Shown here: positions 8,706 to 54,274 of the stretch, one piece after another
Position numbering within the stretch: the stretch's first letter is position 1
Layout of the letters: each line of letters starts with the position of its first letter
DNA from: Myxococcales bacterium
GTDB lineage: Bacteria; Myxococcota; UBA727; GCA-2721815
Length of the DNA: 64,000 nucleotides
Assembly (NCBI GenBank): GCA_002721815.1
Contig: PBLQ01000021.1
Coordinates: 1-64,000 of the forward strand
Reading direction: 5' to 3'
The notes under the pieces: generated by a model
Told to the model about the DNA's origin: nothing
Database searches by the model: none
Seen by the model: only the letters and a program-made list of their open reading frames with translations
Translations under genes and position numbers: made by a program

Positions 8706-8708
8706 AAG

Positions 8709-10817: not shown

Positions 10818-11677
10818 GCTGCCACCCCCTGCCGTGTATAGAGAAGTGTGGCTAAAACCCCATTGAGCTGTTGGGTCTCTTTCAAAAAAGCATCGTGCCC
10901 ATACACAGAGTTCAATTCTATTTTTTCACCGCACGGGAGCTGTTCGACCAGTTCGTCCAAAAGCCACGGCGGCACCAGTACGTCCGAATCAAAACCAATC
11001 ACGGTGGTGGGGGTGGTGATGTTTGCGGGGTGAACCCGGTGTTCATCGATGGCGGTAGATACTGCGCAGAATTCACGGACAGAAAAACGTTTGGTGAATT
11101 CATGACCGTGGTGGTTGAGCCAAGAGAACAGTTCTTGTGGTCGTTGTGAAAACCGGTCGTCCAAGTCTTGATCACTGCGGTAGGTGGTCATGGCTAGGGC
11201 ACGGGCCAACGAAAGGCCTTCATCGTGGGGCAGACTTTGTGCCAGTTGACGCTGAATCCATCGCCAAGCGGTGGCCAAAGTATGCGAGCGGTGAGCCGCT
11301 GCAATGGGGATGATGTGTGAAACGCGGTGCGGCGCCAACTCACCCAAGGCCAGGGCAACCATACCGCCATAGGAACATCCCACCGCAGCGTGAAGGGTAG
11401 AGATGTTATTTTGGTCGAGGAATGTGAGAATGTGTTTGGCTTGTTGGTGCGTGGTGACGTGAGGTTGAACATGCCAGCTGCAACTTAAAATACGAAAACG
11501 TTGCGGGTTAATGGCGCCGTTTTGACCGACGACGGGGGACCACCATTTCAGATCAGAGGTGGCACTGATGCCGCCCAAAACAAGAACAACCGGTGCGTTT
11601 TGAGGGCCAATGAGCCGTATGGTTGGAGAGGGACCGGATGTGCAGTAAGCGTCGATGTGGTTTGTGGTTTGAATCAT
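10814..11677 (-). CDS. metX: Homoserine O-acyltransferase (MetX-type alpha/beta hydrolase)
   Basis: A 287-residue alpha/beta-hydrolase protein, shorter than typical MetX (about 350-380). The nucleophile elbow is GCSYGG with S102, the acid is probably D232 in DSDVLVPP, and the histidine is H261 in YGHDAFLKE, a hallmark of the MetX family. It would acylate homoserine, the first committed step of methionine synthesis; acetyl versus succinyl specificity cannot be read here. The start is well defined: GGAGG lies 5 bases upstream of the ATG, inside a hairpin. It is the first gene of a metX-metB operon under a SAM-I riboswitch, which independently supports the methionine assignment. The missing length suggests a shortened lid region. 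Confidence 0.87.
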   Translation of the reverse strand: MIQTTNHIDAYCTSGPSPTIRLIGPQNAPVVLVLGGISATSDLKWWSPVVGQNGAINPQRFRILSCSWHVQPHVTTHQQAKHILTFLDQNNISTLHAAVGCSYGGMVALALGELAPHRVSHIIPIAAAHRSHTLATAWRWIQRQLAQSLPHDEGLSLARALAMTTYRSDQDLDDRFSQRPQELFSWLNHHGHEFTKRFSVREFCAVSTAIDEHRVHPANITTPTTVIGFDSDVLVPPWLLDELVEQLPCGEKIELNSVYGHDAFLKETQQLNGVLATLLYTRQGVAA

Positions 11678-11681
11678 TTTT

Positions 11682-11707
11682 GCCTCCGATTCAGTGGTCT
11701 CGGAGGC
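11682..11707 (-). promoter_or_regulatory. Shine-Dalgarno-sequestering hairpin of metX
   Basis: On the minus strand GCCTCCGA and TCGGAGGC form a perfect 8-bp stem with a 10-base loop. The 3' arm contains the GGAGG ribosome site of metX, 5 bases before the ATG. No U-run follows, so this is an occluder of translation initiation and not a terminator. It lies 53 bases downstream of the SAM-I aptamer and is its likely expression platform. Confidence 0.75.
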
Positions 11708-11760
11708 CGTTCAAAGAGCCCGACGTTTTTCCTAACCGTAAAAGGTGTGGTCCGCGCTGG

Positions 11761-11862
11761 ACTCATCTTTCGGCACCCGAGGGTCCGCAGGATTTGGCAC
11801 CTTCCATAGTGGGGGTTGCCTCGGCTTCACAGGGCCTGATCCCTCTGCCGATCATGATGAGT
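11761..11862 (-). ncRNA. SAM-I (S-box) riboswitch aptamer
   Basis: The minus strand carries S-box core segments in order: a P1 arm ACTCATC, AGAGGGATCAGGCCCTGTGAAG, a CCGAGGCAACC segment, GGAAGGTGCCAAATCCTGC, a short GC-rich hairpin, then the closing GAAAGATGAGT arm. P1 pairs 11856-11862 with 11761-11767. The S-box class binds S-adenosylmethionine and lowers expression of methionine genes. Its position before metX-metB fits. Confidence 0.92.
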
Positions 11863-11942
11863 TAATTAAGAGTTACTAATTGTGTGGGTGGGCGTCAACT
11901 AATCCACCCACCGTGAGATAATTACTTATTAAAATAGGTAAT

Positions 11943-11968
11943 AAAAAACCGGGCCTGCTGAGCCCGGT
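11943..11968 (-). terminator. Rho-independent terminator after tRNA-Thr
   Basis: The minus strand reads ACCGGGC, a 7-base loop, GCCCGGT, then TTTTTAT: a 7-bp GC-rich stem followed by a U-run, just 3' of the tRNA gene. Confidence 0.85.
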
Positions 11969-11970
11969 AT

Positions 11971-12046
11971 TGGAGCCGATAAGCGGATTCGAACCGCTGA
12001 CCTATTCATTACGAGTGAATCGCTCTACCAACTGAGCTATATCGGC
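11971..12046 (-). tRNA. tRNA-Thr (anticodon CGT)
   Basis: A 76-base cloverleaf with encoded CCA at 11971-11973. The acceptor arm is GCCGATA/TATCGGC, the D-arm contains AGCTCAGTTGGTAGAGC, the anticodon stem ATTCA/TGAAT carries the loop CTCGTAA (anticodon CGT, reading ACG), and the T-loop is TTCGAAT. It is transcribed alone, with a terminator right after it. Confidence 0.95.
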
Positions 12047-12372
12047 GCTGCTGTCTGAATCTTCTGATTCGAGCTCAAAGTCAAGCGGGCAGACAGCCCA
12101 AAAATGGCTCATGAGCCCGTGCGCCCCGTTGAAAACAGCACAACAGCGGGTGCATGAATGAAATAACCCTATGTTTTTTATAACTTTTTCTATGAGACCA
12201 TGTGCCACGAGGTCCCGTCCTCATAAAAAGCTCATTTAAATCAGTCACTTGGGTGACTCAATCAAGACTCCAAAACTGAGCCTCAGACAGAAGGGGGCCT
12301 TCGAAGCGGTCTGTAAGCGTTTGGCCAGGGCGGGCGTCGGTGTTCCATTGGCGAACTCTTCCTAAGCGGTAC
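12047..12372. other. Intergenic stretch without a recognised gene
   Basis: This stretch separates the tRNA from the terminator of the histone-like gene. I see no convincing coding frame. It must hold the tRNA promoter on the minus strand; TTGACT at about 12075-12080 could be a -35 box, but no good -10 follows. Two short inverted repeats are present (GAATC/GATTC at 12057-12070 and AGTCAC/GTGACT near 12242-12257), of unknown meaning. Confidence 0.5.
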
Positions 12373-12404
12373 AAAAAAAAACACGCTCTATATAGAGCGT
12401 GTTT
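12373..12404 (-). terminator. Terminator of the histone-like gene
   Basis: A nearly perfect palindrome, AAACACGCTCTA / TAGAGCGTGTTT with a 2-base loop at 12379-12404, is followed on the minus strand by a run of eight or nine U. It lies about 50 bases past the stop of the Lys/Ala-rich gene. Confidence 0.85.
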
Positions 12405-12452
12405 GGTATAAAAAAAGTCGACACTCCTGAAGGCGTGACGACGAGAAAATGC

Positions 12453-12839
12453 TTATTTCTTTTTGCGACGAGCAGGCTTGCGCTTGGCAGCTTTTTTCTT
12501 CGTTGCTTTTTTCTTAGTGGCCTTTTTCTTAGTGGCTTTACGCTTAGTGGCCTTTTTCTTAGTGGCCTTTTTCTTAGTGGCCTTTTTCTTAGTAGCCTTT
12601 TTCTTGGTTGCTTTTTTCTTGGTTGCTTTGCGCTTAGTGGCCTTTTTCTTGGTGGCCTTTTTCTTAGTGGCCTTTTTCTTGGTTGCTTTGCGCTTGGTTG
12701 CTTTTTTCTTAGTGGCTTTTTTCTTAGTGGCCTTTTTCTTGGTTGCTTTTTTCTTAGTTGCTTTGCGTTTAGTCGCTTTTTTCTTGGTTGCTTTCTTCTT
12801 AGTTGCTTTTTTCTTAGTAGCCTTTTTGCGTGTGGCCAT
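12453..12839 (-). CDS. Histone H1-like Lys/Ala-rich DNA-binding protein
   Basis: A 128-residue protein built almost entirely of about 23 pentapeptides KATKK or KATKR, ending in KPARRKKK. Only Met, Ala, Thr, Lys, Arg and one Pro occur. This resembles the basic C-terminal tails of bacterial H1-like proteins (AlgP, BpH1, Hc1-type), which bind and compact DNA without sequence specificity. KATKR units recur after every three to five KATKK units. The ATG has AAGGAG 8 bases upstream and the gene has its own terminator, so it is a single-gene unit. The Phe/Leu-rich frames on the opposite strand are mirror images of the repeat and not genes. Confidence 0.88.
   Translation of the reverse strand: MATRKKATKKKATKKKATKKKATKRKATKKKATKKKATKKKATKKKATKRKATKKKATKKKATKKKATKRKATKKKATKKKATKKKATKKKATKKKATKRKATKKKATKKKATKKKAAKRKPARRKKK
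12480..12830 (-). repeat. 15-base tandem array encoding KATKK/KATKR
   Basis: About 23 head-to-tail units of 15 bases fill the histone-like gene. Units differ at wobble positions and at the Lys/Arg codon, so the array is not freshly expanded, but its length could vary between strains in steps of five residues. Confidence 0.9.
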
Positions 12840-37018: not shown

Positions 37019-38092
37019 ATGAGATTAAAAACCGGTCCTTTTGCTTTGTCCTGGTTCACATTTTGCTTCTTGTTCGCGGTTTCATTCTCAACCCCCCTGC
37101 AGGCCCAAGGCCTTTTAGACCCCAACGACCCCAACAACGCACTCGGTGGTGCGGGTGATAGCCAAGCCGCAGTATTCCCCTTAAGCGCCAATGTCATTTT
37201 GAGTAACTCCGTGGGCATTGGGACCTTCATGCCGGAATACCAACGCATGCCTTCTTGGGGAACCGGTTTGACTCTGATGATGGGTGTTAATGTGCCAGGG
37301 GTCGGTGTTGTTCCGCGCGGCCGGTTTAACTTGGCGTCTTCGATATCTGTTCCTTGGTTGTTGGCGTTTAATGGGGGTAATAACGCCAACCTCAATCAGC
37401 CCATGGTTGGCGATGTCAGAGCACTGTACGCACTGGGGTCGATTTGGCGTATTGCGCCGCTTAAGCTCAACGTGGGCTGGTCTGGTGGGGCATCCTTACC
37501 CACTTCCATGCGGTCTCGTTATAATAATCTTGCCACCACACTCCGAACGGCCATCCCCATTAGTTTCTCCGGCTTGAACCCGGTGTCCGTTATTTGGATC
37601 CCAAGCTTTGGGTATAACGTTTACACCCGAGCCACCCCGCTTACCCAACGCATGAACAGTGAAGAAGAAGCGAATGCCTTTTTGGTGGTGTGTCGTCCGC
37701 AGGAAGTCCTGGGGGAAAACATGTGCATGCGCCGTGGTCGCCCTTCTGATTATCGCCTATCCAATACGATCGCTTTGGGCTACGGCATTGGTGGCGGGCA
37801 CAGTGTGGGCATGAGCCTCACTTGGAGTATGGGATTCCTTCGGGCGCTCAGCGAGGCCCCAGAACTCCAGAGTCAATATGCTTCAGACCAAAACTTTACC
37901 GAGTCTATGTTCGGTAGCATCAACTACAACTATGTGTTCAAAAACCCATTGGCGCCAGTGCTGGGTTTTGCATTGAGCACTGGTGGGCCTCCGTACACGC
38001 CCACTGGCGAAATGCGCTTTTGGTTTTTTGATCACATCACGCCATCCAACAACCTCACGCAGATCGGTATGAATCTGTCTTGGCGCATGTAA
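37019..38092 (+). CDS. Exported, probably outer-membrane beta-barrel protein
   Basis: ATG 37019 follows GAAGAGG at 5 bases and opens a signal peptide ending near LQAQGLL; the long frame from 36896 is not supported. The mature protein of about 330 residues is rich in alternating polar/hydrophobic segments with Gly, Tyr and Trp (GYGIGGGHSVGMSLTWSMGF, MRFWFFDHITPSNN), and ends in WRM near the C-terminus, all consistent with a transmembrane beta barrel. No named family is recognised. It lies 27 bases before the first giant metzincin gene and is probably co-transcribed, so it may be the membrane partner of those lipoproteins. Confidence 0.72.
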   Translation: MRLKTGPFALSWFTFCFLFAVSFSTPLQAQGLLDPNDPNNALGGAGDSQAAVFPLSANVILSNSVGIGTFMPEYQRMPSWGTGLTLMMGVNVPGVGVVPRGRFNLASSISVPWLLAFNGGNNANLNQPMVGDVRALYALGSIWRIAPLKLNVGWSGGASLPTSMRSRYNNLATTLRTAIPISFSGLNPVSVIWIPSFGYNVYTRATPLTQRMNSEEEANAFLVVCRPQEVLGENMCMRRGRPSDYRLSNTIALGYGIGGGHSVGMSLTWSMGFLRALSEAPELQSQYASDQNFTESMFGSINYNYVFKNPLAPVLGFALSTGGPPYTPTGEMRFWFFDHITPSNNLTQIGMNLSWRM

Positions 38093-38118
38093 AAAAGATT
38101 TTTCAAGGAGAACGCAAC

Positions 38119-41100
38119 ATGAAGTTTTCACTGACCCGACCCGCCACTGTCCTCGTTGCTTTGAGCATAGCGCTGCTCACCGTTTCATCGGGGTGTTCCA
38201 ACCGGAATGATACCATCAATCGGATTACAGATCCGTACTGGGATAAATCGGATTTTAACAAGAATTGGCAAACACAGCCTTTGGGTGAAGCTGTTTGGCA
38301 CATGCGTAAAACCATTACGGACACCGGTATCAACGAGGGTCGTATGGGTATTGCGGACGGAGATTGGTTACAGGTCGAACGTTTGCGTTGGGAAATCACC
38401 GAGCGCGCCCTGATTGGCTGGCGTGATTACGTGGCCGTGCCCGGCGCCGATGGTGACCAACTCGAAGGCGGCGCTGACATGATGCGGGGCGAGCGCGTGA
38501 TCTCTTTTCCCATCACGGGCCACTTCGACCTTCGTAAAGCCTACGATGCTGTGACCGGTCAAGAAAGCAATGTATTGGTGGAAAACCGCGAGAAGCCTTG
38601 GTACGACCGAGCATTTTTCCGCGTGGAATGGTCAAGAACCCTGGCATTTAGATCGTTGGTACCTCGAAACGGCTACACCGTTCAGCACAACGATCCGGCC
38701 GACCCCGATCGGTGGCGTTTCGAAATGAACGACGGCTACTTTGAAGCCACCACGCGCCAGGAATGGCCCACTGATATTTACGGTTACTTCGGATATTACG
38801 ACCCCAACTATGCTTATGATGAATATGCATCAGTGCTTAACATTCGTTGGAGCTTCAAAAAGGTTGATCCAGCCAACGATTACCAGCCTCTTCATTTCCC
38901 CGATCATGTGGTGATGCTCGATGAAAATGGTGATGAGATTCGAGATGAGAATGGTTTGGCCAAGCGCATGCCTATTTTTGAAAAGTTTGGCCTGTACCGG
39001 GTGAATTTTGAAGGGCGAAAAACCTGGGACGAAGAACGCGCCATGTTGACCAGTGGCATGGACTACAACGTGACTCGCTTTAATATTTGGGAAGAAAGTG
39101 TGGATTCAGACGGCGATGTGATTCCGCTCCACAAGCGAACCGTTAAGCCCATCGTCTATTATCCCAACGTTCAACACCCCGAAGACCTGCTCGATGTTTC
39201 AGAAACGGTCATTGGTGAGTGGAACAAAGCCTTCCAAGAAATGTACTACGCCATTCACGACGAAGCCGGTACCGGAAAATACGACTCTGTAGACGACGTG
39301 GATGTGGAGCTGGTGGAGTTTCGCAAAAACAGTTGTCACATCGATAATGTGGTCAAGGTTGTGGCTGATTTAGAGGCCGACGTGGCAGACAAAGTGCAAT
39401 CCGCTGCTGGTTTCACGGCCGATGAAATCAAGTCGCGCATGTCGGATATCTGGAGTGGCGATAACCCAGCGACTTTTACCCAAAAAACCGACGACGAAGA
39501 CCAAGCGCATTTGGACTTAGAACGCATCTGTACTGCTTTGGAATGGTACACCGCAGATGATGAAACGCCCTTCCGTTACCAGCGCCCCGGCGATCTGCGT
39601 TACAACATTATTAACTTGGTGCTGAAGCGCGCTCAAACTGGATGGCTTGGTTTGGGACCCATGCTTGCAGACCCCGTCTCCGGTGAAACCATTCAGGCCG
39701 TTTCTAACATTAACATGGCTTACTTGGATTACAGTGCCGCCAACGCGGCTCGCCAAATGGGAACTCAGTTGGGCGAGCTGGAGTTGAATGATTTGGTTCG
39801 AGGCTTCGACATTCAGCAATACACCCGTGAGCATCTTGCTCAGGTTTCCACGGTGGCTAAAGGTGTTCCCACCGAGCACATCATGCAAGAGATGGATCAG
39901 CGCATGGACAACTTGCGCGAGGCTGGACAGCTTTTCCAAGAAATTTCACCCAACTACGACCGGGCCCAACGCGATCGCTTGGTGGGCACGCCTGTAGAGC
40001 TCAAAATGATTGCACCTGATGATGTGGCATTATTTGGTGGCATCGGTCCTGATGCGGACATGCTCACCGACGACTTAGACGATTTGTTGTTGGACAAGGT
40101 GTCACCATTTAGAGAGGGCAACCTGTGGGAGGGGCTGCGTGCTGATGAACAGCGCTTGGCTGAGCAAGTCAAAATGCCCTTTGACGGGCCTGAATTTGTA
40201 GACCAACTCACAGTGGGTATTTCATTACAGTATCGCGATATGAGCTACGAAGAGCGCTTTAATGCGATTCGTCGCGCGACTTTCCGTTCTGTGTTGCTAC
40301 ACGAGCTGGGTCACAACATGGGCTTGGGTCACAACATGGCAGGCAGTGGCGATGCCCTAAACTTTGGCCCTCGTTTTTGGTACGTCCAATCCTTGGACCC
40401 TGATTTATTCACTGCTGCTAACACCGAAGGCGTCTCAGCCGCGGACAAAGAGCAACTGGAGCTGTGCTTGGCCGAAATGGATGGAGACGACCCCAAAGAC
40501 TTGGTGAACCTGCACGATGGCTTTACGATGACCACGCAAGATTGTTTGCGTCAACAAGAAGGCATGTACTCCTCCATCATGGATTACCATACCTCCTGGA
40601 ACTCCGACAACAATGGACTGGGTCCTTACGACATCGCCGCCATTAAGTTTGGCTATGCCCAGTTGGTGGAAACTTTCCCGGAAGAAAACATTGTTGCCAG
40701 TGGTAACATGAAGGATTGGATCTTCCTGAACGACTGGCGTGATATTCCCCAAGACTTGGTCGCGAACACCGACGCCATTCAAACCCGCGGGCATTACAAA
40801 TATGATTGGGGACAAGCATCCACCCAAATGACGCCACCGACCAATGAAGTACCTTACAAATACTGCTTGGATTCGGGTGGTAACTTTGGTCCGGAGTGTA
40901 AGGCCTGGGATTTCGGTCCCGATTTCCGTACCCGCGCGAAATGGATGGAAACCACTTACTGGCAATACTATTTCTTCAGTCACTTTTCACGGGACCGGTT
41001 GTGGGATTGGCGCCGTGGTGCATGGCAAGGTCCGGTGAACCGAGACCTTCGTGTTTTCCTCAACTACAACCAGATCATGAAATGGTACTATTTCTACAAG

Positions 41101-42315
41101 GCCACCATGCCGGAGTTTGAAGGTTCTTACGCTGAGCAAGACTTTTTACAGGCCACCATGATGGGGCTGAACCACTACAGTCACGTATTGGGTCACCCCT
41201 CTTCCGGTGAGTTCATTAATGTTCCACGTTTCTCGGTGGAGACGTTGATGTGGGACACTGTTCCCGCCGATGGTACTGGCGACCGATTTGAGGTGACCGA
41301 TAAAATGATACCTTATGATTGGTTGGGAACTTGTACCGCCTACTACGCCGCCGATGTGGAGAATGGTATTCCTACCGAAGCATCCGATGGCTTCACTTTG
41401 ACCAGCATTCCTTTGGGCGACGGACGTCCCTTCTTCGCTGAGTGGACTGATGATTATGAAGACTGGTACGTGTCTTACATCGGTTCCTTCTATCCCAAGC
41501 GCTATGTGGGATTGGCCATGGGCTCATCTTACTCCTTCTTCCCACGTGTCCAAACCATCGACGACCGGCGCTTTTTCCATGTGAACTGGTACCGTTTGTT
41601 CCCCAAGCAAGTGGCTAAAATGATGCATTCGGTTATTACCAGCAATAACTTTGCTTATGGGCCTGTGGTGGATCCTGACGGCAACTTTCAGCATCGCGAT
41701 CTGATTGACCCCGCGACCGGCGACTCACCTGACTATACCGGTTACAAGCAAGTTTACCCTTATGTGTCCAGTTACCTTTCTTACTATGCGATGGTGGATG
41801 CGGCATTCAGCATGTCTTACACCGGCGACGGACAGTTGGACATGGTGGACATGATGCGCGTGGCATTGGAAGGCTCTGAAGATGATTTGTCAGCCTTTGA
41901 AGATGCTGACCCCGCCGATGTCTCCACTTTTGTGCATCCGGTCAGTGGTCTCACATATCGCGCATTAAAGGTGGGCGATACGCCAGTTGGTTTTGACATG
42001 GTGGAGCGCTTGAATACTCATAAAGATCGTTACCTGCGTTTGAAGGCCTGCGTGGAGGATGAAGCTCTGAGAACCGTTGACACCTATTGTCACTGTATCG
42101 AGACATCAACACCTGCGGGCTATTGTTGCAATGAGCGCAATGATGATTGTTTAGAACCTTATACCTTGGTGCCTGGCTCCGAAGAGGCCGGAGAAGAATG
42201 CACCTTGGCTGATTTACAAGACCGTCGCGACTCTGCCCAAGAGCGCATGAACCTGGCTGCCGATTTGGTGGATGATTTACGATTCTTTGTTCAAAGATTC
42301 GACAACCGCTTCTAG
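38119..42315 (+). CDS. Giant metzincin-type zinc metalloprotease lipoprotein, copy 1
   Basis: ATG 38119 has AAGGAG 8 bases upstream and starts a lipoprotein signal peptide with SSGC; the earlier in-frame start 38080 is rejected. The product has 1,398 residues. The zinc motif is H728-E-L-G-H732-N-M-G-L-G-H738, with the Met-turn M821 in SSIMDYH, a metzincin signature. A paralogue follows. N-terminal RITDPYWDKSDF, a long middle region and a C-terminal Cys-rich and helical part flank the domain. Related families (DUF5117/DUF4953-type zinc proteases) are known in other phyla; this is probably a surface protease with the barrel protein upstream. Confidence 0.88.
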   Translation: MKFSLTRPATVLVALSIALLTVSSGCSNRNDTINRITDPYWDKSDFNKNWQTQPLGEAVWHMRKTITDTGINEGRMGIADGDWLQVERLRWEITERALIGWRDYVAVPGADGDQLEGGADMMRGERVISFPITGHFDLRKAYDAVTGQESNVLVENREKPWYDRAFFRVEWSRTLAFRSLVPRNGYTVQHNDPADPDRWRFEMNDGYFEATTRQEWPTDIYGYFGYYDPNYAYDEYASVLNIRWSFKKVDPANDYQPLHFPDHVVMLDENGDEIRDENGLAKRMPIFEKFGLYRVNFEGRKTWDEERAMLTSGMDYNVTRFNIWEESVDSDGDVIPLHKRTVKPIVYYPNVQHPEDLLDVSETVIGEWNKAFQEMYYAIHDEAGTGKYDSVDDVDVELVEFRKNSCHIDNVVKVVADLEADVADKVQSAAGFTADEIKSRMSDIWSGDNPATFTQKTDDEDQAHLDLERICTALEWYTADDETPFRYQRPGDLRYNIINLVLKRAQTGWLGLGPMLADPVSGETIQAVSNINMAYLDYSAANAARQMGTQLGELELNDLVRGFDIQQYTREHLAQVSTVAKGVPTEHIMQEMDQRMDNLREAGQLFQEISPNYDRAQRDRLVGTPVELKMIAPDDVALFGGIGPDADMLTDDLDDLLLDKVSPFREGNLWEGLRADEQRLAEQVKMPFDGPEFVDQLTVGISLQYRDMSYEERFNAIRRATFRSVLLHELGHNMGLGHNMAGSGDALNFGPRFWYVQSLDPDLFTAANTEGVSAADKEQLELCLAEMDGDDPKDLVNLHDGFTMTTQDCLRQQEGMYSSIMDYHTSWNSDNNGLGPYDIAAIKFGYAQLVETFPEENIVASGNMKDWIFLNDWRDIPQDLVANTDAIQTRGHYKYDWGQASTQMTPPTNEVPYKYCLDSGGNFGPECKAWDFGPDFRTRAKWMETTYWQYYFFSHFSRDRLWDWRRGAWQGPVNRDLRVFLNYNQIMKWYYFYKATMPEFEGSYAEQDFLQATMMGLNHYSHVLGHPSSGEFINVPRFSVETLMWDTVPADGTGDRFEVTDKMIPYDWLGTCTAYYAADVENGIPTEASDGFTLTSIPLGDGRPFFAEWTDDYEDWYVSYIGSFYPKRYVGLAMGSSYSFFPRVQTIDDRRFFHVNWYRLFPKQVAKMMHSVITSNNFAYGPVVDPDGNFQHRDLIDPATGDSPDYTGYKQVYPYVSSYLSYYAMVDAAFSMSYTGDGQLDMVDMMRVALEGSEDDLSAFEDADPADVSTFVHPVSGLTYRALKVGDTPVGFDMVERLNTHKDRYLRLKACVEDEALRTVDTYCHCIETSTPAGYCCNERNDDCLEPYTLVPGSEEAGEECTLADLQDRRDSAQERMNLAADLVDDLRFFVQRFDNRF

Positions 42316-42342
42316 GCATAAAGGATAATGGAGATGATTCAG

Positions 42343-45300
42343 ATGAAAAATAATCAACAAAAACTTTTTCGCTCTCGTTTCCCTGCCTTGGGCCTGGTTT
42401 TGGCACTGTTGGCGGGTATGGGATGTGCGCAAGAAATTGTGGACATCAATCGAGTTCAACCCAACTACGTGGACAAGAGCACCTTTACAGGTGAGTGGTA
42501 CCACCGTGCAGTGGTGGTGGATAAGCAATTCTCATCCGGCTATCCCTTTGTGGGTTACCAGGGCGACATGGAGCGCATCGTGTGGGAGATTACCCGAGAT
42601 GCATTGCTCGTGTTTCGGTCCTACAGCAAAGCACCCGGCGCTGAAGGCGGCGATGCTGGTTCGCAAACTTTGATCGCATCCTTTCCCATTCAAAAGCACT
42701 TTGACATTCGTCGTGAATACAACCCTGCGAATGGGCGGGAAAGCAATGTGGTTTCTGAGAACGATTTCGATAACCCCTGGTGGGAACGGCAATACATGCG
42801 CGTGGACTGGTCGAACAACACCGTTCAGGATTACGACCTGAATGGCTGGGTCCGATTCTACATGGGGTCTGAAGGAACCACCACTCGCAATGCAGAAAAC
42901 GATACCACCAACCCATGGCGCGTTCGCCTCTCAAATGATTACATTGAAACCACCGTTGAGGCCAATATGGCCATGACGCCGCGAGCGTGTAACGCCACCG
43001 GTGATTGGTACGTGACCTGCAGCACCAATTTGGCGCCATCGACCCGTTACAAACTCTCGTTTATGCGCATCGATCCCAAAGACGACTATGAGCCCTTGCT
43101 TTACCCCGATTACCAGTCGATTCGGTACGGATTGCGCACCACGGCCACTGGTGAAACGGAGTTCTGTTATGAGGACGAAGAGGGCTGTGAGGCACGCGAT
43201 CTATGGTTGTACTACAATCCTTTTGGCGACTATGAGATCTGTGATCCCACCCGGCACGATGTGGACGAGTGCTTTCAAGAAACCACTCGCATTCATTCTC
43301 GCTTTGGGTATTTCAGAACCGAACGCTTTTTGTACGACCGTGAAAATGGGACCACCCTTTCTGCTCGAGAGCAGTTGGCCAACCGTTGGAACATTTGGGA
43401 AAAAAGCTTTGATGAAGACGGCGAGCCAATCCCCTACGCCGACCGAACCATCAAGCCCATTGTCTACCATTTGAACGTAATGTTCCCAGAGGATTTGCAT
43501 CCCGAAATTCGTTCTATCGAAGCCGATTGGAACGGCGCCTTCGTGAATTTGCTCGATGCACTTGGTGTCGAAACGGATGAAAATACCGAAGTGTTCAAAA
43601 TTGTCGAAAACAGTTGTTCCCTTAAGTCAGTGAAAGACTTCGCGGACAAGCACGACTTAAACGGTGAGTTAGAGTCTGCGGGTATTTACCCGGTGGCTTA
43701 CGGCAACCTTGAGCGCGCCTGTGCGGTGCTCGAATATCATACGGCAGGTACGGATCATGCCTTCACCTGGGAGCAGTTGGGCGATCTGCGTTACAGCTTT
43801 CTGAACTGGACGCATAAAGCCGAACAGTCCAGCCCGTTGGGCTACGGCCCGTCTTCTGCAGATCCTTTGACGGGACAAATCGTTTCAGCCAATGCCAACG
43901 TGTACGGCACGGTGGTCAACCGCTACGCAGCTTGGGCAGCAGACATCGTTGAACTTATCAACGGTGAAATCGACGAGAATGATATCCTCAATGGCACCAA
44001 TGCGCGGGAGCACATCGAAAATGCCCGTCAGCGCTGGCACAAAAAACTTTCGCCTGAAAAGCTGGCTCAGTTCAAAGACTTGTTTCATCAACGCACCGAG
44101 CACCTCAGTGACGAACAATACCTGGTGGAACGCCCCTTGCACGCCGTGAATGAGAACATGCACTTGTTGAAAGACTTAGGCTTTGACGAAGAATTGCTCA
44201 TGACCGAAGATGTTTTGCGCATGATGGCCGGTCCAGAGCTGTACCAGCCCGGTCAGGATATCAACGATGAGGCATGGGAACGTGCGCGCCCGTCCAACTG
44301 GGGACGTGCAATGGTTCCAGATGATGCGTACCGTCAAGGGAGCGGACACTTGGGCGACCCCGAAGAGGGCCACGCTCACAGTCACACCGGCGGCATTCAC
44401 GCTTTCGCCCAAAAAGAAGACTTCTTGGGCCGACAGAACTTCTGTTTCCTAGAGGAGATGGTTGAGCCGGCCATTGCCGATTTGGCGCTCTCCCTGCAAG
44501 GAAAATCCCGAGAAGAGGTCTATAACGCGGTACGAAAGAGTGTGTTCCAGGGCGTGATGGCTCACGAAATCGGTCACACCGTTGGCCTGCGTCACAACTT
44601 TGAAGGTTCTGCAGATCCGCTGAACTTCTTTTCTCAGTTCTGGGACGTGAACACGGCAGACAAGTACCAGTCACGAATTACCGAGAGCAGCCATGAGCAG
44701 CGCTACTCTTCCATTATGGATTACCATCAACGTTTCAACAGTGATTTTGGTGGAATCGGTTTGTACGACAAGGCCGCTATTGCCTTCGGTTATGGCCAAA
44801 TGATGGAGGTCTTTGATGAACGCGCAGGAAGTTTTGTGCCCACACAGTTCTATAATAATCTGGGCTTGTTTGATTATGATGATTTGCCGTACCTCTTCGA
44901 AGGGGCGGCGAATGACCCAGTGTACAATGAATACCGTGCTGCATACGACGCTTATTGGGGGGGAGACCGAACGGCCTCTATCAATATTAAAGACCTGGGC
45001 TTAAATCCCACCCAAGGTAAAACCAACATGTACCAACGGCGCATGGTACCTTGGACGGATCAAGTGAAACACATCACCTACCGTGAAATAGCCTCTTCTT
45101 TGGGACTGGGCTCCACCACCTTTGAGAATTCGACGTCTGCGCTCCAATGGGAAGTGCCGTACCAATACTGTACCGACCAGTTTGCTTGGGGCGGAAACCT
45201 GACCTGTAACCGATGGGATATGGGCGCGACCTCGTCCGAAATCGTGTCCAACGCTGCAGAAATGTATGATGCCTATTACATTTTCAATAATTTCCGGCGT

Positions 45301-46404
45301 GACCGAATCATGAGTCCTTACTGGGCGAGCAGCTATATCAATCGATTGTACCAACGCACCTATCAGCCCATGCTGAATGCATTCCGTTATTACTATTACT
45401 ACCAACGGTCTTCGTCCCGTATTTGGCCCATGGTTCAAGATTGGGCCGGCGCCACTTTCTCGGGTCTCGACTTTTTCACTACTGTGTTGGCCGCACCCGA
45501 ACCCGGAACCTATTGTCTGTCGGACGGGGCCTATGTGCCAGAGGCTGAAGTGGGCAGTTGCGATGATTCGGTGAACATTCCCTTGGGCATGGGCCGTCAT
45601 TTCACCACCACATGGACCGACGAGTTTTTCTACCGTCCTGAAGTGATTGGGCAGGTTTGGGACAAAGTGTTGGCCATTATGGCCATGACTGACTCAGCCG
45701 CATTCTTTACCAAAGATTTTTCATCCTCATTTAACCGTGGGGCTTTCTCTATTGGTTACTACCGCGTGTTTGGCCCTGAGCTCACTGAATACTTCACGAG
45801 CTTCATGAAGGGCGAGCCATTGGGTTACAGCGGCCACTTGTACGTGAACGATGGGGTACCGACCCTGACGCCGCCATCACTGGTTCAGCTGGGTGAAGAT
45901 GCAGCACCAATTGACGCGCCCAAGATCAAAGCCAGTACCTCTTGGGGCTTAAGGTATTACGGGACGCTCTATCCGCTGATTCGCTACTCCAGTACGGTGG
46001 ATGCGCAGTTGGATTTTGGGAAGCGTTCTCGGATTGCTTATTTGGGCGGCGCTCAAGACCCAACCGTCTCTGATGATGTGGAAGTAGGCCAGGCACTGTT
46101 CACCCATCCCATCACCTTGGTTCAATACACCGCGTACAGCGTGGATGGTGATGAGAACTCTCCAGGCTATCAGCTGCTGCAAGAAGCCAATGCTTTGGTG
46201 AGCGACGGCGGTGCTTGGCACATGGCGAATGCGGCTTACGAGGCGGCCTTGGCCGATTACGAAGCCAGTGCCAGTGAGGCCAACGAGACTGCTTTAGACC
46301 AAGCGGAAGCAGCTCTAGATGTACAAACGGGCTTATTGCAAGAGAAGGTACATATCATTGACATGGTACGTTCATTGTCTGAAGCTTTAGAGTACAGCAA
46401 CTAG
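42343..46404 (+). CDS. Giant metzincin-type zinc metalloprotease lipoprotein, copy 2
   Basis: A paralogue of the preceding gene, 1,353 residues. ATG 42343 has GGAG 9 bases upstream; ATG 42328 is also possible. The signal peptide ends in LAGMGC. Residues share NRVQPNYVDKSTF with copy 1, then a long N-terminal region (IKPIVYHLN, matching KPIVYYPN in copy 1). The zinc motif is H741-E-I-G-H745-T-V-G-L-R-H751 and the Met-turn M792 lies in SSIMDYH. It keeps all catalytic residues, so both copies look active. The C-terminus forms an Ala/Glu-rich helix. A shared terminator follows. Confidence 0.88.
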   Translation: MKNNQQKLFRSRFPALGLVLALLAGMGCAQEIVDINRVQPNYVDKSTFTGEWYHRAVVVDKQFSSGYPFVGYQGDMERIVWEITRDALLVFRSYSKAPGAEGGDAGSQTLIASFPIQKHFDIRREYNPANGRESNVVSENDFDNPWWERQYMRVDWSNNTVQDYDLNGWVRFYMGSEGTTTRNAENDTTNPWRVRLSNDYIETTVEANMAMTPRACNATGDWYVTCSTNLAPSTRYKLSFMRIDPKDDYEPLLYPDYQSIRYGLRTTATGETEFCYEDEEGCEARDLWLYYNPFGDYEICDPTRHDVDECFQETTRIHSRFGYFRTERFLYDRENGTTLSAREQLANRWNIWEKSFDEDGEPIPYADRTIKPIVYHLNVMFPEDLHPEIRSIEADWNGAFVNLLDALGVETDENTEVFKIVENSCSLKSVKDFADKHDLNGELESAGIYPVAYGNLERACAVLEYHTAGTDHAFTWEQLGDLRYSFLNWTHKAEQSSPLGYGPSSADPLTGQIVSANANVYGTVVNRYAAWAADIVELINGEIDENDILNGTNAREHIENARQRWHKKLSPEKLAQFKDLFHQRTEHLSDEQYLVERPLHAVNENMHLLKDLGFDEELLMTEDVLRMMAGPELYQPGQDINDEAWERARPSNWGRAMVPDDAYRQGSGHLGDPEEGHAHSHTGGIHAFAQKEDFLGRQNFCFLEEMVEPAIADLALSLQGKSREEVYNAVRKSVFQGVMAHEIGHTVGLRHNFEGSADPLNFFSQFWDVNTADKYQSRITESSHEQRYSSIMDYHQRFNSDFGGIGLYDKAAIAFGYGQMMEVFDERAGSFVPTQFYNNLGLFDYDDLPYLFEGAANDPVYNEYRAAYDAYWGGDRTASINIKDLGLNPTQGKTNMYQRRMVPWTDQVKHITYREIASSLGLGSTTFENSTSALQWEVPYQYCTDQFAWGGNLTCNRWDMGATSSEIVSNAAEMYDAYYIFNNFRRDRIMSPYWASSYINRLYQRTYQPMLNAFRYYYYYQRSSSRIWPMVQDWAGATFSGLDFFTTVLAAPEPGTYCLSDGAYVPEAEVGSCDDSVNIPLGMGRHFTTTWTDEFFYRPEVIGQVWDKVLAIMAMTDSAAFFTKDFSSSFNRGAFSIGYYRVFGPELTEYFTSFMKGEPLGYSGHLYVNDGVPTLTPPSLVQLGEDAAPIDAPKIKASTSWGLRYYGTLYPLIRYSSTVDAQLDFGKRSRIAYLGGAQDPTVSDDVEVGQALFTHPITLVQYTAYSVDGDENSPGYQLLQEANALVSDGGAWHMANAAYEAALADYEASASEANETALDQAEAALDVQTGLLQEKVHIIDMVRSLSEALEYSN

Positions 46405-46457: not shown

Positions 46458-49400
46458 TTAAAACGGGAAACCAAATTGTAAATGGATGCGCCAAAGTGGT
46501 CCACCGGTCAATTGTTGGTGCAGGGGCGAGACGGCGAAATCAGCAGCGATGGGGCCTACCGGAAGAATGTACCGCAAGCCCGCACCCACGCTCAGCCCGA
46601 ATTGGTTGGGGTCGTCTTGATTGTCAATGGCATTGGAAATGGCAGAGAAGGCTAAAGGGTTATCGGCCACTGTGACGAGACCAAAGTCGGAAAAGAAAGC
46701 GCCCTGCAAGCTGTCATTGGCCGTGTCTCCAAGTAGAGGAAAGCGCAGTTCGGCGTTGAGTAAATGTGACAGGTTACCGTTGTGAACCCCCACTTGTTCC
46801 ATTTGGGTTTCTTCGTCCACGAGATTTTCGCCCTTTTGGTCTTTCAATACGCCGAACACCCCGATGGTTCGGTCTCCGTAACCACGAATGGTCCGATCGC
46901 CGCCGAGGGTAGAGATTTCGTTTCTGAGAAAATACCAGTTGCTTTGTGGGTTATCGATAAAACTTAACTTAGAGAGTAACCGAAATGCTGTGGTGAGCGG
47001 TCCAAAGGTTTTCACTCGGGAAAGATTGGCCGTAAAGGCGGCAAAGGGTGCAGCGCTGCCCAACGATGGGTGACTGAGCCCCACTGAAAACTCCATTTGG
47101 TGTCCTTCTTTGGGGTTAAAGGGGTTATCCAACTTCATGGAGCGGTAAGCGGGACGTAAAAGACCTTCTTGAATGGGAGTGGATTCGGTGACTGTCAACA
47201 GTCCATCCATGGTGTTGATGGCTTCGTTGGCGTCGCGCAGCAAAGAAATAGCGCGTCCGGAAGAGTCCCACCAAGCCCAACGCAGTTCGTAGCCAAGACT
47301 GATGGTGTCGAGGTTGGACAATACCCAATCCAAACCTGCAGTCATCCGTGTTTGAAAAACCCGTTGTCGCAGGGCGGCCGCTTGTGAATCCAAAGAGATG
47401 GGTTGGGGGCGGTCTTCATACAGCAGTTCTGGAGCGACGACCGAAAAATTAAGGGGCGTCCCCAAAATATGAGGCCACTTTAAGGTGGAGCGAATCTGTG
47501 AGACTCGACCCCAAAATAAACCGTTGTCCACGAGGGCTTCATAATCCAGCATGGCCCCCAATAAATTACGATGTCTAAATTTTGTTTGCCAAGAGAAAAA
47601 GGTGTCGGTGGAAAAGGATAAGGAAGTGTCTAATGAGAAATATGATTTCTCTTCTACAAATATTTGTGCGTGTACGCGTCGCCACTCTTCTTCGAGACCC
47701 AAATATTTGAGCTGTACTTTGGAAAAAAGGCCGGTTTTCCTCAAACGGTCGACACCATCAGAAAGCACCAATGGCGATAAGGGAATGTTGCGATAGTTGT
47801 CAGTGATACCCATTTCGCGTCGCAGGACACTGGTTTGGGTACGCATGTTGCCATCGAATAAAATTTCACCGAGCAATACGGGAGGGACGTTTCGCTTGAA
47901 GGCTTCCATGGATTTTTGGGTCTCGAAGGAGGTGTCAGGGTCGATGGTGTAATGGACCTCTACGTGTCCCTGGTCTTCGGTTTGCTCCATTGACACATGG
48001 GCGTAGGTGTAGCCTTCTTGCACATACATCGAGACCAATTTTTGTCGTTGGGCTTCGACGTTTTCGGCCAGGTAAGGGGTGCCTGAGCAAAAGGGGCCCA
48101 TGGTGGTTTCGTTCTTGTGATGCGGCGGATTGGGCACGACGCAAAGGTCGAAGACATCTAGCGCGCGGTCTTTAAGTTTATCCACACCATGGTGGATATA
48201 AACATGCTTTATTTTTTGGGCGACCCCCTCTTCGATATGAAACACCACTTCGATGTTTTGGTGCTCATCGGAGGAAATTCGGGTTTGGATGTTTGCCTTT
48301 GCATGGCCTGCCAAGCGGTAATGTTCTTGTAGTCGTGCTACATCTGCCGCCAAGTAGGATTGGACCAAGGCACCTGGCGCGAAGAAATGGAATGGTTTGG
48401 AGCCAATGAGAATTTCGTTGAGAAGCATAGCGTCGCTATATGCGTCATTCCCCTTAAAGCGAACCGATTTAATGCGGAATCCTTTGCCACTTCGGATCTT
48501 TACTTTCTGTTCGGCGATCTTTTTTCGTTTTCGTTTTTTGACCTGAATTTTCGCATCGGGAAATTGTTGTTTTTGTACCGCATCAAGCACCAATGCCTTG
48601 AGTTCGTCGTTTTTCATGCTTTGTTTGGCGAAGTCTTCATTTGTCTCCAGAGCGTCTTGGAGGGCGGCGGTGTCGAGGGGCGCGGTAACGGCGACTTGTG
48701 GACTGAAGATTTGCTGTAGCCAGGCATGCCCGGTGGTGAGTGAGGAATATAAGGATTTAAAAACGTCGACGTCTATGGAGGGGCTGGCGCTTTTTGGGTA
48801 GGATTGGATGGAAACTTTTTCATGGGGCCCTAACTTTAATTTCAGCTTTAGGTCCACGCATCGCATGTCGTCTGGTTTATCATCTGAGCGCATTTTGCAG
48901 ACATTGTCACCCGGCTTTGCCATTTTGCCCGTGACAGGAATGTACTCTCCTTTGAGCCGCGCGCGTTTGTAGCCCAGCTGACGGATTTTCGTTTCGGTTT
49001 TTTTGACCACTTTTTTAAAGAGCTTGGGAATGAAGCAGGAAATGGATTGGGGACCCACCGTTTCCAGGGCCATGTCCACGGAGGCACACATTTTTTTAAA
49101 GGTATCATCAAAGGGGAAAGGAGTGCTGTCTCCTCGCTGATAAACAAAACGGACGGAAACAAAATGCCCGCCGGTGATGCGAACCAAAATATCTACAGCG
49201 TGGGAGCCAGGAACCGGGGGAGTCAACACCTGCACTTTAGAGCCAAAGTAACCCTGGCTCTCCAGATATTTTTCTAGCCGTTGTCGCTGCCGGGTGATTC
49301 GGTTGCGTCCGCTGACCTCTTGCTGGTCGATGAGTTCGCCTTCTTTGAGAAAGATACGTTTACGAAAGTCTGTTTCCAGGAAAGAAGGAGGGAGGCCCTC

Positions 49401-49754
49401 GGTGCGAATATAGCGGATGGTTCTGGATCGGGTTAACCCACAGGTCATACGCCCCGCATTGCTATTTTTTCCAAACCGGCACACGGCCGATCGATAGCGA
49501 CCGGTTTTATTTAAAATCTTTTCGGCCTATTTGCCCAGTTGGGGCGTTGCAGGTTGCCCCAGCAAATGAGACACCAGCTGTTTCATTTGTGCTTCTTCAT
49601 TTGGATCGGCCGCATTCCCCACCCTGACACGAATTTCACTGAGAGGTGCCGCATCACCTTCGGCAAAACCAGGCCCCGCGGCCAGGATCAAGGCCCAAAG
49701 GCCCAGCATGGGCCCCAGCACGGCTTGGCACAGGTGTCGCGGAGGTCGTTTCAT
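46458..49754 (-). pseudogene. tamA: TamA-like Omp85 protein interrupted by one in-frame amber codon
   Basis: The ATG at 49754 overlaps the tamB stop (ATGA) and starts a signal peptide (LILAAGPGFAEG). A POTRA begins with LSEIRVRVG, and the frame then meets TAG at 49527-49529. With that codon ignored, the same frame runs on without a stop to 46458, for 1,098 codons. The interrupted segment reads as one POTRA: QLGK, stop, AEKILNKTGRY, and then IRYIRTEGLPPSF. Further POTRAs and a 16-strand Omp85 barrel ending in FGFPF follow. TAG is an ordinary stop in neighbours (42315, 46404), so this is a nonsense mutation or a sequencing error unless read through. The 1,008-residue downstream piece (start 49484) would lack a signal peptide. 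Confidence 0.85.
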
Positions 49755-52700
49755 TGCTCCAAAATCCTGTAGGTCATGCGCACGTCCCCTCGAGGCTCAG
49801 CATTTTGGTTGGTGGAGGGCGGCGAGGCCAAACCACCTTCGAGAAACAATTCTTTACCGAAAGGTAAGTGGTCAAAGATCAAGAAACGCAATCGTAAATC
49901 GTTGTTTTGGGCAGAAGCATCATTGCCAAACTGGATGCCGCCTGCACCCTCCAGTTCGAGTCGTTTGCCCAAGTGCCAGCGCACACCCGTTTTGACGCCA
50001 CTGCTGTCAGCGTAGAGATCCACTTGAACATTGGCGCCCAGTTTGTTGCGCAGCAAATCTTCAACTTGTTTGCGGGTGGAGGCGGTGAGTTCTCTGGAGA
50101 CGGCGCGCAGGGCATTGTCGGTACTGGGGCCGCCACCGGCGCTGTCACCAGGCAGGGATGGAAGGTACCCCAGCAAAACCAGAGCCAGCAAATCGGTTCG
50201 TGAGTAGTCACTCCCGTCTTCTGCACGAAAATCCAGTTTCATTTCATCCAAATTACCTTCGAGAACCAGCACCAGGGGCAGGGTCTCTTGGTTCAGTTGC
50301 GGAATGTCTCGTTGAGATACTTCGGACCAAGCTTCGATTCTAAACTGTGGGTCGATAAAGTGGCCCGGGGTTTGTTTGAAGTCCACCGTGGCCGACGCAA
50401 GGTCGAACTGCGCGTAGGGGAAAACAAATTGGCCTTCGGTAAGTTCCACACTGCCTGTGAGCAGCGGTTCCCGTAGGTTCTGTGCCAAGCGCAAAGAGCC
50501 TTGAAGGTCTGTCTCTAGGGAGAAGGAATTGAGCAGCGTTTGTACCCCGAAGCTTTGAATTAAAATGCCCACATCGAATTCCAGATCTTCCATAAAGTAC
50601 AAGGTTTCAGTGAGTGGTGTGCCAGGGGAGTCATCTGCAGCGGTGATCACAAAGTTGTTCAACCGGAATTCTTTTTGAAGTTGGCCCTCAGTGATTTCCA
50701 GCTGCCCTTGGAGCTTGGGGGCTTTGCCTTCACCTTGGAGTTTGAGTTGGGTGGCGCATTCCACGTGCGTGGTACGGCTGTGGTAGGTGAGACCGCTGGC
50801 TTGGACCTCGAGGTTCCACTGGTCGATCGGCGTGGTGTCAAAAATGTCTGAAGACACAGGGTTGAGAAGAACATCTCCATTGAGGGCCAAGTCCCCATTG
50901 TCGGTTTTGGTTTTCAGCTCAACAAAGGAAATGCGAATTTGTTCCTCAGAGGTTTCGCCATTCTCTTGTGCTTGGGGCGATTCTTGTGCAAAAGCCAAGG
51001 CCCCAGATTGAAAAATTAAATCTTGATCAAGAGAGGTCAGGTGCACAAAAGCCCCCGGTTGGGGTTTGATCAGCCCTTCCAGTTGGGGTTGGTCCGCCGT
51101 GCCTCTGGCTTGAATCTTCACGTCGAGCAATCCCTCGCTCTGGGTGACACTGTCGGTGAATAAGCCCAAGAAGGCCAAGGCCAATTGGCCCTGGGCGTCC
51201 AGCTTCATTTCTTCTGGGGCATAGAACCCCGAGATGGTGAGTTGTCCGGATTCAGTAATGAGTTCGACTGGGGTGTTCAGTCGAGCGCTTTCTCCCGTGA
51301 ATTGAATGGCAAAAGGTTGTTTCAGATCGAACCGAGGGGCTTGCGGTGATGCAAAATCAAATTCGATGAACCGTCCACTGCCACTGATGTCCCATTCTGC
51401 TTCGCTGTTGTCCCGTGCCAGACTAATGGTGGAGGTGAGGTGCATGCCGGCTTGAATTTCAGCTCGCGCTACGGAGGGGATGTAATCCGCCATGGAGGCA
51501 AAATCCATTTCGACTTGTGCCGTGAGATTGCTGGTGGATTCGGCGTCAATATTTCCTTGCACACGAATTTGGAGCCGTTCTTTTTTACTGCATGCGATGC
51601 CACGCGTGCGGCTGCTCGCTGAGAAATTTGGGAAGGCGCACACTTGCGCGTCTACCAGACCATTTTGTATTTCGCCCGCCACGCGCACCGAACCCAAGTA
51701 TTTGAAAGGTGATAGGGGGCTCGGTCCGTTTTCTTCTTCATCGTCAAACTGGGGCTGGCTTTGTTCTTCGAGAATTAGTCCTAATTGCGCCACCGAGAGG
51801 TTCAAATGAATTTTGGGGTCTGAAGTGGTGCCCTTGATACGGGCTTTGCCCTGCAGGGTTCCATCCATGGGGGGAATGGATTCTGACCAACCCCCACCAT
51901 AATGTTGCAGATCTAGATCTTGAAGACGTATTTGTGCGAGGACCTCATCAGTCAATGTACTTAAATAGCTCTGAAAAAACACAGAACCTTGGCTGCTGGT
52001 GATCAGGCCATTGGCCGCCACTTCATAATCAGTGGCTTCGCTTTGCTGCGGTGTTGCCACCACGCGTACTTTGCCATCGCCCAGAGCACGCTCATCGTAG
52101 ACCAAATCAGACAGAAACAATCCGGCTTCCAGTTGCGGGTGTTTGATGTTCTCATGGATTTTAAGCCAACCGGCCACTTGACCTTTGGCTGGGATTTCTT
52201 GGGCAGAGGCAAAGCTCTCAACGTCCACATGGTTGATGGAGATGAGACCGGCGATGTTCATCTGGTCCAAGTCCAATTCGATGCTTTCTCCTGAAACGTT
52301 GAGGTTGGAGGAAACAACGGTGAGCCGGTTCAAAAGAACCCTTGGGTATTGTAATTCACCTTGAAGATCCATTTCGCTTTTGAGGATGCCTTCAGTATGA
52401 ATATCTTCGCCATGCACCTGAAACACCACTTCGGGGGTTTCAGTGGTGCCTCCAATTTGGAACGCGGCAGAAACAGCGCCCGTCAGGGGGTTTTGTTCGG
52501 GCTGAACCATCTCCAGACTGGCTAATTGGATTTCGCGCAACTCGCCTTGACCTGCCAAGCCAATGAGGATTTCATCACTCAAATCAATGGTGAGATTTAA
52601 ATTGCACATGCCTCCGGCCAACTCTGCCGTGAGTTCAGGCATGTGCACTTGGCTAGGAGACACAGTGACCGAGGTGGTAATTTCACTAACGGGCAAGCCG

Positions 52701-54274
52701 CTGTACTCCACTGCTGCCACGTGCACGTCACCGCTGTACAAGTAATCATCGAAGGTTCCAGTGACGGTGCCAGTGGTTTTGGTATTTCCGAGCACCATAT
52801 CTTCAGGAAGACTGTCCACCAATTCTTTGATTCGACTGCTTTCCAGTTCTGTATTGAGATTGAGTGTCTCTCGTTGCAGGTTGATTCTTCCGTTAAAAGA
52901 AAAGGCGAGGTCTTCTGCGGTAATTTTATTTTGTCGCAAAGACAAAGCTTTGCCATTGAGTACCATCTTGCCTTTTAAACGACTGATGGCCGGAAGTTGA
53001 AGAGGGGCCATCACGAAATTGCGGGTGGTCAACTGGTAGCTGGCTTCAATGACCGGTGCCTCTCCTTTGAGGTCAACAGAAGCGTTGATTTTGCCTCTGA
53101 CCGATCCTTTCAATTTCCTGGCGAGGTTGGTGCCAGGCACCAGGGCACGCAAAGGAATGGCGCTGAGTTGGTTGTCGAGCGTCACTTGTTTTTGATTCAT
53201 CTCATAATTAATGCTGCCCTTGATGGTACCCCCTGCGAGGAGTTGTGCATCGAGCTCAGTGACCTGGACGAGGTTCGCCCCCACATTTACTTTTGCGCTG
53301 CCAGAGGCCAATGCATAGTCGTAGGCTTCTACGGGACCAAAGTTGGTGTTCAATTGAATGGTCGGGCTGTCAAAGTTACCGTTGATATTAACCCAGCCAT
53401 TGACCTTTGGGGTTGCGAAATCCAGAGGCGCCAATTTTTCGGGCCAAGCATTTTTTGGAAAATTGTAGCTGCCGCTGAGCTTCAGTGAGCCAGCTCCGTC
53501 ACGGTTGATTTTGCCTTTAAGATTGAGGTTGCCACCCAGGGTTTCAGTGCTGAGGCTGTCAAAACGAATTAAAGAGCCAACTAATTGGGTATTGGTCAGT
53601 TGGGTGTTGCCTAAATTCATGGCCAATGTGTCGTTTTCGAACCGTCCCGAGCGAAAAGCCATTTTGTTCAGGGCCACGATGAGGTTTTCCCCAGAGAGTT
53701 CTAAAGTGCCTTGGGTGTTGATGCGTGCGAACTGCAAGGAAAGTCCCGCATCGTTCTTAAAGCGCACATCGCCTTTGTTAATTCGCAGGTTATCGATGGT
53801 AATGTTGAGCGGTTCGCCATCATCAGAGTCTGCCCCTGACTTTTTTCTTTTTGGGGTGAAGGCCCGCTGAAGGTTGAGTTTGCCACTTTGAATGCCCAAA
53901 TTGAGCGTAGGCTCATCGATGGTAATTTCCTCAAAGCGCAATTCACCTGAAAAAAGTTCTTTCACCGATACGGAGACCCGGAGTTTGCGTACATCCACCA
54001 CCAATTCCCCACCCGGCGCTTTAACTTTCACTCCGTACAAGGTCACTGTGCTGGGGGCATCGTAGTCGAAGCGCTGGGCCAGGATTTCACCAGCAATTTT
54101 TTTGTTCACGGTGTCCAACAATAGCTGAGGGATATTGTCGGTCAGCCCGGCGATGCCGATGGTCTGGATCGGCGGTACCGTTTTGGGTTCCGCATGTAAG
54201 GGAAGGGCAAAACCACACAAAAAAGCCAGCCAAGCGCACTGAATTAGTTTTGGATGTTTTTGCCATGGTTTCAT
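49751..54274 (-). CDS. tamB: Translocation and assembly module protein TamB
   Basis: A 1,507-residue protein of the AsmA/TamB superfamily. It opens with a signal anchor (AWLAFLCGFALPLHAE), followed by more than a thousand residues of repeated beta strands that build the long hydrophobic groove, and ends with the DUF490/TamB domain (LLALVLLGYLPSLPGD, LTASTRKQVEDLLRNKLG, LRFLIFD). TamB spans the periplasm from inner membrane to the Omp85 partner and moves lipids or helps insert outer-membrane proteins. Its stop overlaps the start of the tamA-like gene, so the two are translationally coupled and the partner is the amber-interrupted gene downstream. Confidence 0.92.
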   Translation of the reverse strand: MKPWQKHPKLIQCAWLAFLCGFALPLHAEPKTVPPIQTIGIAGLTDNIPQLLLDTVNKKIAGEILAQRFDYDAPSTVTLYGVKVKAPGGELVVDVRKLRVSVSVKELFSGELRFEEITIDEPTLNLGIQSGKLNLQRAFTPKRKKSGADSDDGEPLNITIDNLRINKGDVRFKNDAGLSLQFARINTQGTLELSGENLIVALNKMAFRSGRFENDTLAMNLGNTQLTNTQLVGSLIRFDSLSTETLGGNLNLKGKINRDGAGSLKLSGSYNFPKNAWPEKLAPLDFATPKVNGWVNINGNFDSPTIQLNTNFGPVEAYDYALASGSAKVNVGANLVQVTELDAQLLAGGTIKGSINYEMNQKQVTLDNQLSAIPLRALVPGTNLARKLKGSVRGKINASVDLKGEAPVIEASYQLTTRNFVMAPLQLPAISRLKGKMVLNGKALSLRQNKITAEDLAFSFNGRINLQRETLNLNTELESSRIKELVDSLPEDMVLGNTKTTGTVTGTFDDYLYSGDVHVAAVEYSGLPVSEITTSVTVSPSQVHMPELTAELAGGMCNLNLTIDLSDEILIGLAGQGELREIQLASLEMVQPEQNPLTGAVSAAFQIGGTTETPEVVFQVHGEDIHTEGILKSEMDLQGELQYPRVLLNRLTVVSSNLNVSGESIELDLDQMNIAGLISINHVDVESFASAQEIPAKGQVAGWLKIHENIKHPQLEAGLFLSDLVYDERALGDGKVRVVATPQQSEATDYEVAANGLITSSQGSVFFQSYLSTLTDEVLAQIRLQDLDLQHYGGGWSESIPPMDGTLQGKARIKGTTSDPKIHLNLSVAQLGLILEEQSQPQFDDEEENGPSPLSPFKYLGSVRVAGEIQNGLVDAQVCAFPNFSASSRTRGIACSKKERLQIRVQGNIDAESTSNLTAQVEMDFASMADYIPSVARAEIQAGMHLTSTISLARDNSEAEWDISGSGRFIEFDFASPQAPRFDLKQPFAIQFTGESARLNTPVELITESGQLTISGFYAPEEMKLDAQGQLALAFLGLFTDSVTQSEGLLDVKIQARGTADQPQLEGLIKPQPGAFVHLTSLDQDLIFQSGALAFAQESPQAQENGETSEEQIRISFVELKTKTDNGDLALNGDVLLNPVSSDIFDTTPIDQWNLEVQASGLTYHSRTTHVECATQLKLQGEGKAPKLQGQLEITEGQLQKEFRLNNFVITAADDSPGTPLTETLYFMEDLEFDVGILIQSFGVQTLLNSFSLETDLQGSLRLAQNLREPLLTGSVELTEGQFVFPYAQFDLASATVDFKQTPGHFIDPQFRIEAWSEVSQRDIPQLNQETLPLVLVLEGNLDEMKLDFRAEDGSDYSRTDLLALVLLGYLPSLPGDSAGGGPSTDNALRAVSRELTASTRKQVEDLLRNKLGANVQVDLYADSSGVKTGVRWHLGKRLELEGAGGIQFGNDASAQNNDLRLRFLIFDHLPFGKELFLEGGLASPPSTNQNAEPRGDVRMTYRILEQ

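Follow-up and report, generated by a model that had tools for sequence, protein, structure and literature searches.

Is a gene that is open over its whole length, except for one in-frame amber codon, a young pseudogene, the product of a wrong base in the sequence, or a gene whose stop is read through? The question is raised by an Omp85-type gene, here called tamA1, in a draft genome of a Myxococcales bacterium; "the window" denotes the whole 64,000-nucleotide stretch of DNA that was analysed. A preliminary description of the locus had offered these three readings. The set proved to be the right one, the first two being favoured by the results below and read-through becoming less likely.

Frame reading placed tamA1 on the minus strand (46458..49754), from an ATG at 49754 to a TAA at 46460-46458, in a frame of 1,098 codons with a single internal stop. 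This stop is a TAG at 49529-49527 (minus strand; 49527..49529), in frame at codon 76. The first common start codon after it, a GTG at 49484, lies 45 bases past the first base of the TAG. The upstream piece (49530..49754, minus strand; 75 codons) includes a probable signal peptide, read by eye, and the start of the first POTRA, while the downstream piece (46458..49526, minus strand; 1,022 open codons) is predicted to carry the remaining POTRAs and the barrel. The remaining five frames over the tamA1 stretch contain 31 to 45 stops each, and the chance of a 1,022-codon open run at the base composition of the gene is about 1e-20; the downstream frame is therefore real coding sequence. The pieces before and after the TAG align with relatives in one and the same frame. 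Adjoining tamA1 on the same strand is tamB1 (49751..54274; 1,507 aa), which is open from its ATG to a TGA that overlaps the downstream tamA1 ATG as ATGA. Thus, the lone TAG within an otherwise open 1,098-codon frame, the 45 bases separating it from the next possible start and the intact, ATGA-coupled tamB, all reported in the preliminary description, were seen again in our reading. Elsewhere in the window, the plus strand carries two adjacent and very large genes (38080-46404), apparently tandem paralogues, whose predicted products of 1,411 and 1,358 aa show zinc protease motifs of the HExxH type, HELGHNMGLGHN and HEIGHTVGLRHN; an uninterrupted frame some 2,887 codons long lies at 42-8705 on the same strand.

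Pfam searches assigned the predicted tamA1 product to the Omp85 superfamily, with above-threshold matches to POTRA (PF07244, 97.7 bits, cut-off 21.3) and Omp85 (PF01103, 82.5 bits, cut-off 24); tamB1 matched the TamB family above threshold (PF04357, 76.5 bits, cut-off 22.4). Of the equivalog models, neither the TamA model (NF047950, 35.1 bits, cut-off 625) nor the BamA model (TIGR03303, 176.8 bits, cut-off 297) was matched above threshold, and among solved structures the tamA1 profile matched BamA best and TamA weakly. Since both cut-offs were missed, the product is best called a TamB-linked Omp85 protein. The earlier label "TamA-like" is thus apt in a loose sense only, with 35 bits against a TamA cut-off of 625 and 177 against a BamA cut-off of 297. 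A structure model of the read-through product, built from five sequences (mean pLDDT 60.6), suggested about seven POTRA-like units followed by a barrel from about residue 706. In this model the first POTRA is a beta-alpha-alpha-beta-beta unit at residues 40-109 (pLDDT about 70-83), and codon 76 falls within its second helix (71-82), in agreement with the previous placement of the TAG inside the first POTRA.

The comparison with sister genomes proposed in the preliminary description was made with 14 genomes, all of the same order, the named ones being Myxococcales or "Deltaproteobacteria" metagenome-assembled genomes. Strong matches to tamA1 were obtained in six of them (G002, G003, G006, G008, G010 and G013), none with an internal stop. 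In the four relatives for which a residue aligned to codon 76, this residue was R, E, E and E; hence, these order-level relatives have sense codons at the site of the TAG, and the alignment suggests that codon 76 is a variable charged helix position. Conservation of the TAG, as would be looked for in programmed read-through, was not found in these genomes. The same six genomes gave strong matches to tamB1 (6/6), the two genes being neighbours with a common orientation wherever the contigs let both be seen, and no genome of the order was found that clearly had only one of the two.

The genome also carries an intact pair of the same general type. On contig C36, an Omp85 gene (1,051 aa) and a tamB gene (1,339 aa), both open, lie side by side on the minus strand (G000:C36:15000-28000, locus positions 5265-8420 and 8544-12563). 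A true BamA is encoded on contig C67 (480 bits). A phylogenetic tree resolved three separate groups, namely the window type (100/100 support), the C36 type (100/100) and BamA (100/99). Both TAM types are present in G002, G006 and G013, only the window type was seen in G003, G008 and G010, and only the C36 type in G001, G004, G005, G007 and G011. Thus, within the limits of incomplete genomes, either type can be missing in the order. The preliminary description had considered that a lost TamA with a kept TamB would be unusual. This view needs qualifying, as the C36 pair and the C67 BamA remain and bacteria commonly have TamB but no TamA (PMC4494059). What is left of the surprise is narrow: in this order the two window-type genes are either both retained or both absent, as seen in six of six genomes with strong matches. 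The existence of two deeply separate tamA-tamB-type pairs, patchily distributed across the order, should serve studies of TAM evolution for longer than the stop itself.

The stop in tamA1 is genuinely present in the sequence analysed, and is of an ordinary kind. Its best explanation, and a somewhat probable one, is a single recent nonsense substitution in this tamA1 allele. Translation from the ATG at 49754 would end at codon 76, leaving some 75 residues, unable to form even the first POTRA, and a product re-initiated from the GTG at 49484 would lack the signal peptide and thus have no export signal. For these reasons, a working outer-membrane protein would not be expected beyond the trace that natural mis-reading could supply. 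The loss would probably be tolerated because of the second intact tamA-tamB-type pair and BamA. The lone stop, the otherwise intact frame, the uninterrupted genes of relatives, the second pair and the ordinary code are direct results; the correctness of the TAG base, the absence of the product and compensation by the second pair are inferred. The mutation, if real, should be young. About 3.6-4.0% of single substitutions in tamA1 create a stop, and as no further stop occurs in 1,098 codons, neutral divergence since the loss is bounded at about 2.3-2.6% (P = 0.05). Likewise, the tree branch of tamA1 (1.22) is similar to that of the C36 TamA (1.18), which gives no sign of long relaxed evolution. 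Counting against a true loss is the observation that every genome of the order with a clear window-type TamB also has the matching TamA, so that a loss here would be the first seen in the order. Should the mutation be real, it would be a natural early step by which a genome with two TAM-type systems in parallel comes to lose one of them.

The main rival to a young nonsense mutation is that the TAG arose as an error of consensus calling or of assembly, or represents the allele of a minor strain, the organism itself having an intact gene. The assembly is a draft in 74 contigs with 2.6% contamination. No ambiguous base occurs anywhere in the window, while elsewhere in the assembly, the same contig included, doubtful sites are written as N. 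Such letters were seen at L098 2464-9315 (G000:C3, about 32.4-39.3 kb) and at L089 5623-8893 (129.6-132.9 kb of the window's contig, C20), mostly, as judged by eye, at third codon positions; they are probably the consensus of two related populations. A wrong base at codon 76 would fit the fact that a single base is involved, with the frame undisturbed and the remainder of the gene intact and conserved, and also the otherwise constant co-occurrence of tamA1 with tamB1; furthermore, the scattered N letters on C3 and the far end of C20 resemble the consensus of two related populations. However, the absence of N from the window weakly supports a firm call of the TAG, and no further split gene was found in a 416 kb sample of the assembly, so that the rate of false nonsense codons is not high. 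On balance, we regard an error or a minor-strain allele as rather unlikely.

A recent nonsense substitution is to be weighed also against translation of the TAG. The stop counts and the split-gene search that bear on this point rest on the same 416 kb sample. Among 236 well-scored genes in it, TAA is the terminator of 127, TAG of 55 and TGA of 54. Release factor RF1 (prfA) is intact (506.7 bits, cut-off 423), as is RF2. A genome-wide sense reading of TAG was thus rejected, with 55 of 236 genes ending in this codon and RF1 intact, and so was pyrrolysine decoding, the best match to PylS (24.2 bits) being below the cut-off of 178. No other stop-split gene was found in the 416 kb; three candidates were resolved by domain search into neighbouring genes with different domains. 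The search for an amber suppressor tRNA suggested in the preliminary description was run and yielded no tRNA with a CTA anticodon, either among 32 tRNA genes (Rfam tRNA search, ARAGORN) or in a scan with a degenerate pattern. The CTA pattern gave 16 matches, as against 18 for a reversed-pattern control, and the sole tRNA among them was the known tRNA-Arg(tct). Neither tRNA-Tyr nor tRNA-Ile was found by these searches, a tRNA-Tyr control with the same pattern also giving no Tyr tRNA; hence, the recovered tRNA set is incomplete. The RNA following the TAG folds no better than shuffled sequences (z = 0.5). Together, these results make recoding of the TAG very unlikely. A tmRNA gene was also noted, at L150 1486-1851 (G000:C2, near 97.7 kb), with the tag peptide ANDNVEYAVAA.

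Leaky reading of the amber codon, by which a near-cognate tRNA would decode TAG at a low level and yield the full protein in reduced amount, is a less likely explanation than a consensus error. It would account for a frame that is intact on both sides over 1,098 codons, and bacterial genes have been reported to contain widespread in-frame stops for which dN/dS lies below 1 (PMC7918605). Yet the stop is conserved in no relative, no stable RNA structure lies past the TAG, no CTA-anticodon tRNA appeared among the 32 tRNA genes or in the pattern scan, and RF1 is intact. A further version, in which a fixed leaky amber throttles one of two TAM-type systems and leaves little full-length TamA1 relative to TamB1, seems improbable. 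Programmed recoding or reassignment of TAG, through a suppressor tRNA, pyrrolysine or an alternative code, is hardly credible: the open frame is all that speaks for it, apart from the room that a tRNA set lacking Tyr and Ile members leaves for an unassembled suppressor, whereas TAG terminates 55 of 236 genes, RF1 is present, PylS reaches 24 bits against 178 and no second TAG-split gene occurs in 416 kb. The case is mostly a caution: an isolated in-frame stop, met in a draft genome, does not by itself testify to recoding.

How does the locus, with its presumed young nonsense mutation, compare with known systems? In-frame stops are widespread in bacterial genes, and for many of them dN/dS is below 1, a pattern that Belinky et al. 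interpret as frequent read-through (PMC7918605). The tamA1 stop resembles theirs in interrupting, alone and in frame, a gene that is otherwise conserved; however, their filter accepts a stop only when at least two genomes share it, and the tamA1 stop, seen in one, would fail it (PMC7918605). As to the protein, TamA of the proteobacterial translocation and assembly module is, like the predicted tamA1 product, an Omp85 barrel with POTRAs encoded beside, and overlapping, tamB. TamA has three POTRA domains, while tamA1 reaches only 35 bits on the TamA model and would encode about seven POTRA-like units, as judged from a low-confidence model. BamA supplies the best curated model for tamA1 (TIGR03303), but the score of 176.8 bits is below the cut-off of 297, tamA1 falls in its own clade with 100/100 support and the genome has a separate, 480-bit BamA. 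The occurrence of tamB together with bamA where TamA is lacking, the two genes often sharing an operon, has been reported over much of bacterial diversity (PMC4494059).
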